Assembly: GCA_023957775.1 (NCBI GenBank)
Contig: JAMLGR010000004.1
Span: 1-64,000 of the forward strand
DNA: 64,000 bases
Reading direction: 5' to 3'
DNA from: Fimbriimonadaceae bacterium
GTDB taxonomy: Bacteria > Armatimonadota > Fimbriimonadia > Fimbriimonadales > Fimbriimonadaceae
This document shows positions 4,832 through 39,273 of this stretch, piece by piece; the first letter of the stretch is position 1, and every line of letters begins with the position of its first letter. Both the position numbers and the translations under genes were made by a program. A model generated the notes under the pieces. The model was given only the letters and a program-made list of their open reading frames with translations. It made no database searches and was not told where the DNA came from.

Positions 4832-4849
4832 AGACCTACGTTTTCGGCT

Positions 4850-5000
4850 CAGCACGCCTGTCCAGCAGGCGTGGCACCCGATGAGCACCAGGAGCCCTGC
4901 AACCAGTCTCTTCAGCACGCCTGTCCAGCAGGCGTGGCACCCGATGAACACCAGGAGCCCTGCAACCAGTCTCTTCAGCACGCCTGTCCAGCAGGCGTGA
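4850..5000. repeat. 63-bp tandem repeat (2.4 copies)
   Basis: Units begin at 4850, 4913 and 4976, exactly 63 bp apart. Each starts with CAGCACGCCTGTCCAGCAGG, a 7-bp stem hairpin, and continues with GTGGCACCCGATGA and a unique tail; the two full copies differ at one base (GAGCACC/GAACACC). With the hairpins before it this fills the 317-bp gap between the CARDB gene and the next gene. No gene is seen here. Confidence 0.8.
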
Positions 5001-5008
5001 CACCAATT

Positions 5009-14751: not shown

Positions 14752-14842
14752 GGTTTGCGGTTTGCGGTTTGCGGTTTGTGGTTGGCGGTTTGCGGTTTGC
14801 GGTTTGTGGTTTGCGGTTTGCGGTTTGTGGTTTGCGGTTTGT
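14752..14842. repeat. Heptamer array (13 x 7 bp, GGTTTGC/GGTTTGT)
   Basis: Thirteen 7-bp units in exact register, mostly GGTTTGC with GGTTTGT variants, between the 5' end of the thioesterase gene and the 3' end of the PfkB kinase gene. A TTGCG-type repeat like that at 1-129 follows (14852-14880). There is no gene in 14737-14888. Confidence 0.85.
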
Positions 14843-29113: not shown

Positions 29114-29207
29114 GAGTGTGGGAGTGCGCGCGCTTGCGCGCCGCCCTGAGCCCGAGCGGCGAGGCGCAGGGCGAGCCCGGCGGAGGCAAGGCGACGAGCT
29201 CCCAAAG
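29114..29207. repeat. Single copy related to the 62-bp repeat
   Basis: The segment from about 29116 begins GTGTGGGAGTGCGCGCGCTT and continues GCCCTGAGCCCGAGCGGC, closely matching the repeat unit arrayed at 32951-33563. It lies between convergent stop codons. No gene is seen. Confidence 0.6.
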
Positions 29208-30621: not shown

Positions 30622-32949
30622 ATGGATCGCACCCTGATTTTCGCCGCCCTTGCCCTTCTCTCCACGTCCGCTTCGGCCAAGCCCCACGACCACAACTTCG
30701 ACTTGCTCGACGTGAAGTGGAAGATTGCGTTCGACGAGCCCACTGCGGGCATCCGCGGCGACGTGGTCAATTTGATCCAACCCCCGAAAGGGTTGGCTGA
30801 GATTCGACTCGATTCCGTGGGCCTGAAGATCGCCGCGGCGGAGATCGACGGCCAAAAGGTGGCTTGGAGGCAGGAGGACGAGGAGCTCGTCCTCACCGTG
30901 CCTCCCGCGCTGCAGAGCGGGAAGCGATTGGCGGTGCACCTGGTGTATTCGGGCAACCCCGAAGGCGGCGTGTACTTCGTTCCCGATGCGCGCGCCTACC
31001 CCTCCAAGACCGGCATGATCTACACGCAAGGGGAGCCCGAGGACACGCGCCACTGGCTGCCCACGGTCGACCACCCGTACGACAAGGCGACCACCGAAGC
31101 GTTCATCGAAGTGCCCGCCAACCGATATGCGGTCAGCAACGGAGCGCTTCTGGACGTTCAGGAGCGGGGAAACACGAAGACGTTCCACTGGCGGATGCTG
31201 CAACCGCACTCCACCTACCTCATCTGCTTCACGGTCGGAGACTTCGTCGAGGGCAAGGAGATGTGGAACGGGAAGCCGATCCAGTACTTCGTGCCTCGTG
31301 GACTGGAGGACCAGGGCGGGCAGGCCTTCGAGGGAACGGCCGACAACGTGCGCTTGTACAGCCAGATCACGGGCTTTCCCTACCCTTATCCGAAGTACGC
31401 CCAGACCGTGGTCGCCGACTACATGTTCGGCGGGATGGAGAACATCACCGCCACGACGCAGACGATCGGGACGCTCCATCCCGCCAGCGTCCACCCTCTG
31501 GCAGACTCCACCGGGCTCGTGGCCCACGAATTGGCGCACCAGTGGTTCGGCGACACGGTGACCTGCAAATCGTGGCCCCACATCTGGGTGAACGAAGGGT
31601 TCGCTTCCTTTCTGCCGGCGTTCTACACACGCGATCGTGACGGTCAAGACGCCTACGACATCCAGCGCTCCGACACGTTGGCCGGTGCGCTGGGCGCTTC
31701 GCAAGACATGTCGCGTTCGATGATCAAGACCGAGTACGACGCGCCGATCGAGCTGTTCGACGGGTTTGCCTACGGCGGCGGCGCCGCCCGCATGTTCATG
31801 CTGATGCACGAGCTGACCGAGCCCGTCTTTTGGGACGGCGTGCGGTCGTACCTGGAGAAGTACCGCTACCAAGCGGTGACGACGGAGGATTTCTTCCGGG
31901 CGATGTCGGATCGCACGAGGAAGGACCTGGACGGATTCCGCAAGCAGTGGTTCTACACGCCGGGAGCCCCGAAACTGATGCTTTCCCGCGTCGGTGACAA
32001 GGTGACGGTGCGTCAGGAGACGCCCGGGTTCCACGTGAAGGTGCCCCTATGGGCGCTGGACGGAAACACCTGGGTGCGTCGCAATGTGGAGCTCGACGGC
32101 GTCGCATCGGCGACGCTTGAGATTCCCGCTCGCGTGCGGACGATGCTGATCGACCCCGACGTGCAGCTCATGGCGACGATCGAGTACGACCTGGGCTACA
32201 CGGTGGACGATTGGGCCGCGCTTTACGAGCATGCGCCGAATGCCGGACAGCGCGCCCGCCTGATCGCCGCGTTCCCGCAGGCGATGCGGGGGGCGCTGGC
32301 CAAGCGGCTGGTGGATGGCGAGGCGATCCCTTCGCTGCGGTCGCGGTTGATCGACGCGGTGGGGAACGATGCGACGGAGCTGCTGTTGAAGTACGCGAAC
32401 AGCGAGGACCCTTTCGCGAGGCGCTCGGCCCTTCAGGCGATGGGCCGGCAGCCGCGTTCCGCCGCGTTGGAGGACGTGTTGCGCACGACTTGGGAGAGCG
32501 ATCCCAACGATCTCCTGCGCCGCGCGGCCCTCGAGTCGCTGGTACGCCTCACCAACGACAAGGCGCTGGTCTTGAAGGCGCTGCAGACGGTCGGCTTCCA
32601 AGAGACGTTCCGCACGTTCGCGCTGGGCGAGCTGGTGCGGATGGACCCCGACGCCGCACGCGCCGTGGCGCTCGACTGGGTGGTCCACCCGATCAACGAA
32701 ACCCTGCGTGTGACGGCGATCAACCACCTTGGGGGACTCAAGGATGCGGCGGGGCAAAGGGCGGTGTTCAACGCCCTAGCGGACGTGGCCCGCGAGCCCT
32801 CGTTCGGGGCGCGCAGCTCGGCGATCCGGGCGCTCCAGGCCTACGGCGATCCCGCGGCGATCCCGATCATCGAGCCAGCCACCCACCACGGCTTGGTCGC
32901 GATGCGGAACACCGCAGCCGGCGCCATCGCAGCCTTGAAAGGGAAGTAG
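30622..32949 (+). CDS. Secreted M1 family aminopeptidase with C-terminal HEAT repeats
   Basis: 775 aa. A signal peptide (DRTLIFAALALLSTSASA) directs export. The M1 zinc site is complete: HELAH at 302-306 with the third ligand Glu325 in WVNEGFASF, preceded by the exopeptidase motif GGMENITA near 271. From about residue 560 the protein turns into helical HEAT-like repeats (RSALQAMGRQPRSAALEDVL, then RAALESLVRLTNDKALVLKA), as in ERAP-like and bacterial M1 peptidases. It removes N-terminal residues from peptides in the periplasm or outside the cell. A long repeat field follows its stop codon. Confidence 0.95.
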   Translation: MDRTLIFAALALLSTSASAKPHDHNFDLLDVKWKIAFDEPTAGIRGDVVNLIQPPKGLAEIRLDSVGLKIAAAEIDGQKVAWRQEDEELVLTVPPALQSGKRLAVHLVYSGNPEGGVYFVPDARAYPSKTGMIYTQGEPEDTRHWLPTVDHPYDKATTEAFIEVPANRYAVSNGALLDVQERGNTKTFHWRMLQPHSTYLICFTVGDFVEGKEMWNGKPIQYFVPRGLEDQGGQAFEGTADNVRLYSQITGFPYPYPKYAQTVVADYMFGGMENITATTQTIGTLHPASVHPLADSTGLVAHELAHQWFGDTVTCKSWPHIWVNEGFASFLPAFYTRDRDGQDAYDIQRSDTLAGALGASQDMSRSMIKTEYDAPIELFDGFAYGGGAARMFMLMHELTEPVFWDGVRSYLEKYRYQAVTTEDFFRAMSDRTRKDLDGFRKQWFYTPGAPKLMLSRVGDKVTVRQETPGFHVKVPLWALDGNTWVRRNVELDGVASATLEIPARVRTMLIDPDVQLMATIEYDLGYTVDDWAALYEHAPNAGQRARLIAAFPQAMRGALAKRLVDGEAIPSLRSRLIDAVGNDATELLLKYANSEDPFARRSALQAMGRQPRSAALEDVLRTTWESDPNDLLRRAALESLVRLTNDKALVLKALQTVGFQETFRTFALGELVRMDPDAARAVALDWVVHPINETLRVTAINHLGGLKDAAGQRAVFNALADVAREPSFGARSSAIRALQAYGDPAAIPIIEPATHHGLVAMRNTAAGAIAALKGK

Positions 32950-32950
32950 C

Positions 32951-33563
32951 GTGTGGGAGTGCGCGAGCTCGCTCGTCGCCCTGAATCCGAGTCGGCTTGC
33001 CGCGAGCGGGTGGGTATGGGAGTGCGCGAGCTCGCTCGTCGCCCTGAATCCGAGTCGGCTTGCCGCGAGCGGGTGGGTGTGGGAGTGCGCGAGCTTGCTC
33101 GTCGCCCTGAATCCGAGCGGCTTGCCGCGAGCCGGTGGGTGTGGGAGTGCGCGAGCTTGCTCGTCGCCCTGAATCCGAGCGGCTTGCCGCGAGCCGGTGG
33201 GTGTGGGAGTGCGCGAGCTCGCTCGTCGCCCTGGAATCGAGCGGCTTGCCGCGAGCCGGTGGTGGGGGTGCGCGAGCTCGCTCGTCGCCCTGAATCCGAG
33301 CGGCTTGCCGCGAGCCGGTGGGTGTGGGAGTGCGCGAGCTCGCTCGTCGCCCTGAACCCGAGCGGCTTGCCTCGAGCCGGTAGGTGTGGGAGTGCGCGAG
33401 CTTGCTCGTCGCCCTGAATCCGAGCGGCTTGCCGCGAGCGGGTGGGTGTGGGAGTGCGCGAGCTTGCTCGTCGCCCTGAATCCGAGCGGCTTGCCGCGAG
33501 CGGGGTGTGGGAGTGCGCGAGCTTGCTCGTCGCCCTGAATCCGAGCGGCTTGCCGCGGGCCGG
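32951..33563. repeat. Tandem array of a 62-63-bp repeat (10 copies)
   Basis: Units start (at TGGGAGTGCGCGAG) near 32954, 33017, 33080, 33142, 33204, 33263, 33324, 33387, 33449 and 33508. Each contains GTGTGGGAGTGCGCGAGC, then TCGTCGCCCTGAATCCGAG and CGGCTTGCCGCGAGC; copies differ by a few bases (GAGCTCGC/GAGCTTGC, CGGGTGG/CCGGTGG) and one has a deletion. There are no unique spacers, so it is not CRISPR. Reading frames through it on both strands are by-products of a length near a multiple of three. No gene is seen. Confidence 0.9.
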
Positions 33564-33583
33564 CCGCCGGACAAGTCCGGCGG
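33564..33583. repeat. Palindrome between the two repeat arrays
   Basis: A perfect 9-bp inverted repeat CCGCCGGAC/GTCCGGCGG with a 2-nt centre. It marks the point where repeat orientation flips. Confidence 0.65.
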
Positions 33584-33585
33584 GA

Positions 33586-33720
33586 TTAGGGCGACGCGCA
33601 AGCGCGCGCACTCCCAGGTTGGGGCGACGCGCAAGCGCGCGCACTCCCAGGTTAGGGCGACGCGCAAGCGCGGCGCACTCCAAGGTTGGGGCGACGCGTG
33701 TGGGCGCGCACTTGCAGGTT
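33586..33720. repeat. Inverted 33-bp repeat array (4 copies)
   Basis: Four units of GGGCGACGCGCAAGCGCGCG followed by CACTCCCAGGTT, 33-34 bp long. The unit is the reverse complement of the first half of the 62-bp repeat (GGGAGTGCGCG...CGTCGCCC), so this array faces the one on its left. It ends at the stop codon of the M42 peptidase gene. Confidence 0.85.
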
Positions 33721-34765
33721 AGTCTGCGACGAGGTACTCGGCGATCAGCAGCGCCGTGTCGTGGAGCGCGTCCACGTGCGTTCGTTCGTAGCCATGGCTG
33801 GTGTCGACGCCCGGGCCGATGAGGGCGACCTCGGCTTGGCCCCCGCCGCGCCAGTAGACGGATCCGTCCGACCCGTAGTAGGGGTAGATGTCGGTCTTGA
33901 GGTCGATCCCCACGTTCTCGGCGATGCTGCGGAGCTTCTGCGTCAAGCGCCGGCTGTAAGGGCCGGAGGAGTCCTTGACGCAGATCGTGCAGTGGAACTC
34001 GTCTCCCTGCAGCCCCGAGCCCAAAGCGGCCATGTCGACGACGACCAGCTCGGCGAGATCCGCCGGGAGCCCGTCGAGGCCGCCGTGTCCCACCTCTTCG
34101 AAATTGCTGAACTGGATCGTGCTGCGCTGGGCGGGAGTGACCGCATGGTCCTTGAGCGCCTTGAGCGCCGTCACTGCGCACGCGACGCACGCCTTGTCGT
34201 CGAGAAACCGCGACCGCACGAAGCCCGATTCGGAGTGTTCGACGCGGGGATCGAACGCCACGAAGTCGCCGACCTCGATCCCGAGCAACCGCGTCTCCTC
34301 CGCGGAGCTCGTGCGCTCGTCCAACCGCACCTCGAGGTTGTCGGCGTTGCGGGCGGCGGTGCCGGCCTCCTTGTTCACATGGGCCGCCCCGTTCTGGAAC
34401 ACGATGGAGCCGCGAATCGGGTGTCCTCCGGACGAGTGCACCCACACCCCTTCGCTCTCCACGGTGGGCCACATGACGCCGTTGAGGGCGGTCATCCGCA
34501 ACCGGCCGCTCGGCTTGATTTCGGCGACCATGGCGCCGAGCGTGTCCACGTGGGCGGAGAGTCCGCGTGGCAGGTCCTTTCGCAACCCCTCCACGTCGGC
34601 GATCAAGGCGCCCTTGAGCGTTCGGCGGCTGCCGATGCCCAGCCCTTCGAGCTCCTGCTCCACCGCGCTGACCGCCCAATCCGTATAGCCGGTGGGGCTG
34701 GGCGTGTTGAGGAGGTCTTTCAGGAATCGCGTTAGAAAGTCGAGATCGATCTCAAATCCGGCCAA
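33719..34765 (-). CDS. M42 family metallopeptidase
   Basis: 348 aa. A two-metal aminopeptidase of the M42/FrvX type. Conserved metal and catalytic positions: AHVDTLG (first His-Asp), FLDDKACVAC (bridging Asp), FEEVGHGG (catalytic Glu pair), an Asp in VVDMAALG, and the C-terminal DTSHGYERTH (last His). It degrades peptides in the cytoplasm, often as a dodecamer. The start is a TTG at 34765 with GAGGTG at 34776-34771. Its stop codon adjoins the inverted repeat array; the M1 peptidase lies beyond it, convergent. Confidence 0.93.
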   Translation of the reverse strand: MAGFEIDLDFLTRFLKDLLNTPSPTGYTDWAVSAVEQELEGLGIGSRRTLKGALIADVEGLRKDLPRGLSAHVDTLGAMVAEIKPSGRLRMTALNGVMWPTVESEGVWVHSSGGHPIRGSIVFQNGAAHVNKEAGTAARNADNLEVRLDERTSSAEETRLLGIEVGDFVAFDPRVEHSESGFVRSRFLDDKACVACAVTALKALKDHAVTPAQRSTIQFSNFEEVGHGGLDGLPADLAELVVVDMAALGSGLQGDEFHCTICVKDSSGPYSRRLTQKLRSIAENVGIDLKTDIYPYYGSDGSVYWRGGGQAEVALIGPGVDTSHGYERTHVDALHDTALLIAEYLVAD

Positions 34766-37695: not shown

Positions 37696-37701
37696 CCCAA
37701 C

Positions 37702-37778
37702 AAACCCCAAACCCCAAACCCCACACCGCAAACCGCTCACCGCAAACCACAAACCACAAACCACAAACCCCAAACCTA
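37702..37778. repeat. Heptamer array (11 x 7 bp, AAACCNC)
   Basis: AAACCCC three times, ACACCGC, AAACCGC, TCACCGC, AAACCAC three times, AAACCCC, AAACCTA, all in exact register, between convergent mlaE and der. The last unit contains the der stop codon. Confidence 0.87.
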
Positions 37779-39122: not shown

Positions 39123-39179
39123 GGCGCGTACGGAAGCGCGACCTAGCTTGCGGCGCCTTCCGCCTAGGTTACCCGTGCC

Positions 39180-39263
39180 GGGAATCGGGAAACGGGAATC
39201 GGGAATCGGGAAACGGGAGTCGGGAATCGGGAATCGGGAAACGGGAATCGGGAATCGGGAATC
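39180..39263. repeat. Heptamer array (12 x 7 bp, GGGAATC/GGGAAAC)
   Basis: Twelve units in exact 7-bp register, GGGAATC with GGGAAAC and GGGAGTC variants, between the 5' end of der and the 3' end of the PP2C gene. A different core from the GGTTTGC type but the same period. No gene is in 39123-39273. Confidence 0.87.
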
Positions 39264-39273
39264 GGGAGGCACC

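Follow-up and report, generated by a model that had tools for sequence, protein, structure and literature searches.

A repeat field between convergent peptidase genes of a Fimbriimonadaceae bacterium as a probable expanded REPIN of a RAYT system with a GGAGT tag

What fills the gap between two convergent peptidase genes with a block of direct repeats facing inverted ones? The locus lies in a 64,000-nt stretch of a Fimbriimonadaceae draft genome (hereafter, the window), and the original prediction proposed that it could form a large hairpin and might act as a two-way transcription barrier or as a protein-binding array. Our analysis gives strong grounds to read the field as an expanded REPIN: a hairpin-forming element that is not autonomous and was very probably dispersed by a single-copy RAYT (REP-associated tyrosine transposase) found elsewhere in the same genome. 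The odd-looking array is now part of a transposase/hairpin-repeat system, a REPIN/RAYT system of the familiar sort with an unusual recognition tag.

Anatomy of the repeat field

The features of the field and its surroundings in the window are as follows.

30622-32949, + strand: M1 peptidase gene with HEAT repeats, flanking the field
32951-33563, + strand: ten direct half-REPIN units, each a REP (TGGGAGT plus a bulged hairpin) and inner hairpin 1
Inside the direct units: inner hairpin 1, GCGGC-TT-GCCGC in most units
33508-33616: core of the field, a complete REPIN of 109 bp made of REP(+), inner hairpin 1, inner hairpin 2 and REP(-)
33564-33583: inner hairpin 2, a 9-bp stem with an AA loop
33589-33616, - strand: inverted REP 1, with the CGCGCTTGCGCG stem variant
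33622-33649, - strand: inverted REP 2
33655-33688, - strand: inverted REP 3, a 34-bp unit carrying an indel
33689-33716, - strand: inverted REP 4, degenerate, with 3 mismatches
33719-34765, - strand: M42 peptidase gene, flanking the field
29116-29204, + strand: decayed REPIN between two convergent genes, with its left REP at 29119-29146 and its right limit set by eye

The ten direct units of the original prediction are confirmed at 32951-33563, with start spacings of 63, 63, 62, 62, 59, 62, 62, 62 and 59 bp, a TRF score of 1059 with 94% matches, and a unit length of 59-63 bp. The four inverted units, spanning 33589-33720 at 33-34 bp each, also stand as predicted, as do the 9-bp palindrome (inner hairpin 2 above) and the setting between convergent M1 and M42 genes. 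The array fills the gap between these genes, whose ORFs end at 32949 (M1) and 33719 (M42). With up to three mismatches allowed, a 28-bp REP core matches the window 14 times, and 100 shuffles average 0.00 matches; inverted REP 3 is missed at this threshold because of its indel. Seen from the core REPIN (33508-33616), the field is built of nine further copies of REP plus hairpin 1 to the left (59-63 bp) and three further copies of the right REP alone to the right (33-34 bp). The copy at 29116, described at first as solitary, does lie between convergent genes, where it takes up nearly the whole intergenic gap (29114-29207), but it looks like a decayed complete REPIN and not a lone unit; its right REP (approximately 29188-29204, read by eye) is shortened, with the middle deleted.

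Folding agrees with the predicted capacity for a large hairpin. As single-stranded DNA the core REPIN reaches z-scores of -8.1 and -8.5 on its two strands, and the whole field folded as RNA reaches -13.7 (20 shuffles only). A single REP folds just slightly better than its shuffles (z -1.1 and -1.4, equalled by 25 and 24 of 200 shuffles).

Two further candidates were rejected: a CRISPR array, the units running head to tail without unique spacers, and a coding region, the long ORFs that pass through the array on both strands being taken as by-products of the repeat.

A dispersed family of REPs and REPINs

The genome to which the window belongs is a 3.51-Mb draft in 27 contigs (96.6% complete). 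Searching it with the 28-bp core at up to three mismatches returned 170 matches (83 and 87 on the two strands) and 0 for a reversed-pattern control, and the field is thus not special to one locus. Cluster statistics were drawn from the window and 44 fetched stretches around listed sites (40 of 72 candidates scored in one listing, the leading places in another), which hold at least 165 REPs (up to four mismatches) in at least 50 clusters, two of them within the window and at least 48 outside it. With 13 REPs at that threshold, the window field is the largest of the 50; the next have 11, 8 and 6, and 11 clusters consist of a single REP.

Facing neighbours make up 42 pairs in these stretches, 38 of which span 106-119 bp (15 exactly 112 bp), so the usual element is a facing REP pair of about 112 bp; the remaining four span 132, 141, 186 and 1496 bp. 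Two further hairpins lie between the REPs in 35 of the 38 pairs, one short, in many cases GCGGC-NN-GCCGC, the other longer, with arms that vary yet remain complementary (GCCGAAC/GTTCGGC, GCCGGAC/GTCCGGC and GCCGAGC/GCTCGGC, for example). Folded as single-stranded DNA, three other REPINs gave z-scores of -8.8, -3.3 and -5.2, which puts the four folded elements between -3.3 and -8.8. The REP starts with TGGGAGTGCG in 160 of 165 copies, and its stem accommodates alternative complementary pairs: AT in 83 and CG in 80 of 165 at one position, GC in 153 and CG in 6 at the next.

Two bases out from the facing REPs, a C or a T is found on both sides in 31 of 31 clusters of the window and the other loci of its genome. 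The summed complementary run of the bases just outside is 41 against 19.9 (sd 5.6) in 2000 shuffles of the right ends (largest 42; 31 clusters), a possible trace of cleavage or target choice. The pair 1496 bp apart (locus L055) brackets a gene with a 371-aa ORF, in which no transposase likeness was seen, as judged by eye.

Genomic setting and proposed functions

Gene context was assigned with our own simple codon-usage gene caller. At the 44 sites with both neighbours, 27 gene pairs are convergent, 15 co-directional and two divergent, and convergence is far rarer among other junctions of the same stretches (18 of 131; Fisher p 3e-9). Cluster edges facing a stop codon fall within 10 nt of it in 27 of 69 cases (counted 3 nt outside the REP). 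Overlap with predicted ORFs is at most 30 nt for 42 of the 50 clusters and exceeds 30 nt for eight; four of the eight sit at the very start of an ORF, and these ORFs look like over-long starts, while the L055 cluster is 412 nt and the L078 cluster 180 nt into the 5′ part, and those of L068 and L074 are at or near the 3′ end. According to PMC3733652, REPs lie downstream of coding regions, for the most part where the neighbouring genes are convergent or unidirectional. The convergent preference found here matches that description, and selection against promoter insertion can be its source.

The same setting bears on the idea that the field is maintained specifically as a terminator, or as a transcription barrier in both directions, for the two convergent peptidase genes. 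The convergent location, seen at 27 of 44 sites, the strong hairpins and an array that fills the gap would all suit it. Against it, a terminator-like site, that is, a GC-rich stem with a T run, is found 0 times in 32850-33850 on either strand (mean of 0.4 in shuffles), and an intrinsic terminator was rejected on this ground; the element stands also between co-directional (15/44) and divergent (2/44) genes and in at least 48 clusters outside the window, those on both sides of a transposase gene included, and a convergent bias is likewise expected under purifying selection. A barrier is unsupported as the primary function and we consider it unlikely; an effect on transcript 3′-ends or on supercoiling may exist as a secondary one.

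The other function proposed at the outset, a protein-binding array (for gyrase, IHF or a nucleoid protein, as with E. coli REPs) selected for chromosome organization, is slightly less likely still. Its case lies in the regular 62-63-bp spacing within the window, in the high copy number and in the proteins that PMC6006769 names as bound to REPs. Same-direction neighbours occur in 26 of the 50 clusters (64 pairs), with a spacing that is often constant per cluster (six of 34 bp in L060, three of 36 bp in L070) but ranges from 27 to 151 bp over the family, and therefore has no common phase.

That an assembly artefact or a collapsed repeat has altered the number of units is very improbable. A draft of 27 contigs and near-identical tandem units would invite such an error, but the units differ along the array, and same-direction neighbours recur in more than half of the clusters.

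The cognate transposase

Reading the gap between two REP arrays located the RAYT gene, and a profile search returned a second, distant match.

G000:C5:75072-75617 (L048:2673-3218): intact RAYT of 181 aa, with REP arrays on both sides
G000:C14:4132-4500 (L215), - strand: RAYT-like 156-aa ORF, 25.7 bits against a cut-off of 80

A REP beside the RAYT gene (C5:74913) is identical to window copies. The protein passes the NCBIfam model NF047646 (REP_Tyr_transpos, REP-associated tyrosine transposase) with 88.6 bits (cut-off 80) and is the sole above-cut-off match to it in the genome. Against Pfam Y1_Tnp it scores 20.4 bits, below the cut-off of 23, consistent with the blank Y1_Tnp scan of the genome (no match at E 0.001). 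The best solved structure for it is E. coli TnpA-REP (4er8, E 0.004), and Y134 and N138 of the RAYT fall opposite its residues Y115 and N119; Y115 is the catalytic tyrosine of that enzyme. H73, H75, Y134 and N138 are identical in 28 of 28 aligned homologues, and N119 of TnpA-REP is named essential for transposition in PMC6006769. As for the L215 ORF, no HxH motif was seen by eye in its translation, and a repeat search of its surroundings returned no REP.

The original prediction had held that finding the unit in mobile elements elsewhere would speak for a transposon origin and against its own proposal. The unit is indeed found on both sides of a transposase gene, and its origin is therefore a mobile element. 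A MITE belonging to an insertion sequence, either an ordinary IS200/IS605 or another, would account for a short, non-coding element with inverted ends, but this is the least likely reading of all, since Y1_Tnp is unmatched in the genome (E 0.001) and the only over-cut-off REP_Tyr_transpos match bears REPs on both sides.

An expanded REPIN is the reading on which the features converge: a tagged palindrome, high-copy, dispersed and extragenic, arranged as a facing REP pair, along with an HUH and tyrosine RAYT flanked by REPs. RAYTs of E. coli, Stenotrophomonas and Marinomonas act on single-stranded REPs (PMC8266576), and REPINs have been argued to be the mobile units of the RAYT (PMC3116915). 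For the genome studied here we infer the mechanism from linkage, anatomy and conserved residues. The RAYT would recognise the single-stranded REP, with its unpaired GGAGT tag and hairpin, and would cut and rejoin it; in this manner REPINs could have been moved into intergenic gaps, and selection would have left them mainly where two genes end. After insertion between M1 and M42, repetition would have brought the left half (REP plus hairpin 1) to ten copies and given four of the right REP. Such half-unit expansion is unexplained by RAYT action as such, and slippage or unequal exchange, the putative source of the added copies, accounts for it more simply. The tandem growth of hairpin repeats could be studied in these half-REPIN expansions, same-direction neighbours being present in 26 of 50 clusters.

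Comparison with described REP systems

The REPINs of Pseudomonas fluorescens SBW25, as described in PMC3116915, share with the present family the inverted REP doublet, the predicted hairpin, the intergenic location, the high copy number, the link to a RAYT and the occurrence of tandem clusters. The simulations of that study use 71- and 110-bp segments, and it places REPIN clusters beside RAYTs. By the same description the two differ in tag (GGAGT here, GTGG/GTAG in SBW25), in the two extra inner hairpins present here, and in the manner of repetition: half-elements, either REP or REP plus hairpin 1, are often repeated here, whereas ordered clusters in SBW25 are tandem whole REPINs with their flanks.

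Two REP super-families are described in PMC3733652, one with the tag GTAG (along with GTGG and similar forms) and one with CGTC. Like these, ours are tagged short palindromes found mostly between convergent or unidirectional genes; unlike these, the tag is neither GTAG, or one of its degenerate forms, nor CGTC. The GTAG super-family tag (GTAG, GTGG, GYRG) was not found, the GTGG seen in the window including flanking bases that vary between sites. CGTC was not found as a tag either: the conserved unpaired end is GGAGT, and a CGTC close to the opposite end belongs to the stem foot, where its T is the bulged base, present in 70%. Pseudomonas REPs such as TGTGGGAGCGGGC (PMC2817692) resemble our REP over GGAG, and our tag could thus have been derived from one of the GTGG type.

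With E. coli BIMEs and TnpA-REP the system has in common an HUH and tyrosine enzyme, a bulged REP stem and inverted REP pairs. It differs in the residues that contact GTAG, H101 and R104 of 4er8, which align with T120 and T123 of our RAYT. PMC6006769 reports good conservation of W94, Q95 and R104 in those TnpA-REP subclasses that use GT[AG]G (2.2, 2.4, 2.5 and 2.7), and it describes subclass 2.6 and class 3 as being without GT[AG]G. The latter resemble our case, as described there, in having a RAYT-type protein flanked by atypical palindromes with copies elsewhere in the genome; subclass 2.6 is mostly from Bacteroidetes, while the homologues considered here come from many phyla, a comparison made by description only.

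Tag and stem across homologues

Homologues of the RAYT were gathered into a set of 28, our own included, with 40-100% identity in the search tables; they come from relatives and from named entries of several phyla, most of these being metagenome bins. Of the 28, 22 have the word GGAGTGC within 250 bp, as do none of 12 more distant homologues (27-35% identity). By our estimate, which assumes equal base composition, a 7-mer on either strand would occur by chance in about 6% of 500-bp neighbourhoods. The six homologues without GGAGTGC within 250 bp are L090, L108, L113, L115, L119 and L120, with just 165 bp available upstream of L108.

With our own genome left out there are 66 tags, 51 of which open a foot-anchored stem of at least five pairs; these 51 come from 20 of 27 loci. 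Full pairing in the 51 stems is by construction, because only paired stems were counted; this does not apply to the change of pair type. The first and second pairs are GC and CG in 51 of 51, three or four pair types occur at each of pairs 3-8, and the three bases preceding GGAGT vary as well (TTT 17, TAT 14, CTT 7 and others; n = 51). Since both the preceding bases and stem pairs 3-8 vary, the fixed part is GGAGT plus the GC foot. On the protein side, the equivalent of the GTAG-contact residue R104 (residue 123) is R in 0 and T in 22 of 28. A W stands at the position of W94 in 27 of 28, and Q95 is ambiguous in the alignment, with a Q one position on in 18 of 28.

Tag and stem are found beside homologues in entries labelled Armatimonadota, Hydrogenedentota, Omnitrophota, Chloroflexales, Ignavibacteriales, Zixiibacteriota, Sumerlaeota and Bacteroidetes. 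We advance as an evenly balanced proposal that GGAGT with a GC-footed stem constitutes a third REP tag class, read by a distinct, phylum-crossing RAYT clade. Under this proposal the tag differs from GTAG together with the tag-contact residue (no R104 equivalent), the stem drifting with its pairing kept. If a third class is real, tag-enzyme coevolution becomes directly testable. The homologous enzymes, a natural set with a near-fixed tag and many stems, provide a clean test of what a RAYT reads: tag, foot or stem. No paper among the literature matches listed treats a GGAGT-tagged REP or an Armatimonadota RAYT, and an earlier description may exist; "armatimonad" is absent from the main text of PMC6006769, and "GGAG" at the start of a word from the searched text of PMC3733652 and PMC2817692.

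The family in relatives

As a population, the 28-bp core is present in 0 of 60 relatives, four of which have one three-mismatch match each, and the history of the family is undatable for that reason. The repeat was also absent from collections of genome contigs and viral contigs (exact pattern in both) and of plasmids, collections that may omit our own genome. The locus itself offers no empty site, M1 lying within 1.5 kb of M42 in our own genome only and in 0 of the loci of 29 relatives, so that no insertion event is seen. What can be said of present activity and exact copy number is limited by the draft assembly, the single strain and this lack of an empty site.

A shorter word, GGAGTGCGCGA, is found 103 times in our own genome (control 6) and, in the three clearest relatives, 29 times in G016 (control 5), 23 in G012 (control 1) and 15 in G034 (control 2). 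In G031 the RAYT homologue (C1:1193268-1193940, L086) is stop-free with REPs on both sides, and the four copies of GGAGTGCGCGA (control 4) include three beside the RAYT gene; this is possibly a RAYT without a population. Judged by GGAGTGCGCGA alone, which may miss some REPs, population size appears to vary widely among lineages that share the RAYT. A stop-free RAYT homologue is also present in G013 (C9:168304-171041), where a second, approximately 1.7 kb off, is in two pieces, one with a stop.

Other tandem repeats

The window holds three heptanucleotide tandem repeats, GGTTTGC at 14752-14841 (12.9 copies), CAAACCC at 37701-37776 (10.9 copies) and CGGGAAT at 39179-39267 (12.7 copies). CGGGAAT/CGGGAGA-like tracts adjoin the REPs of L055 and the RAYT-like ORF of L215. 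A 63-bp unit at 4849-5004 of the window is repeated 2.5 times with 97% matches, and its consensus is unlike the REP.
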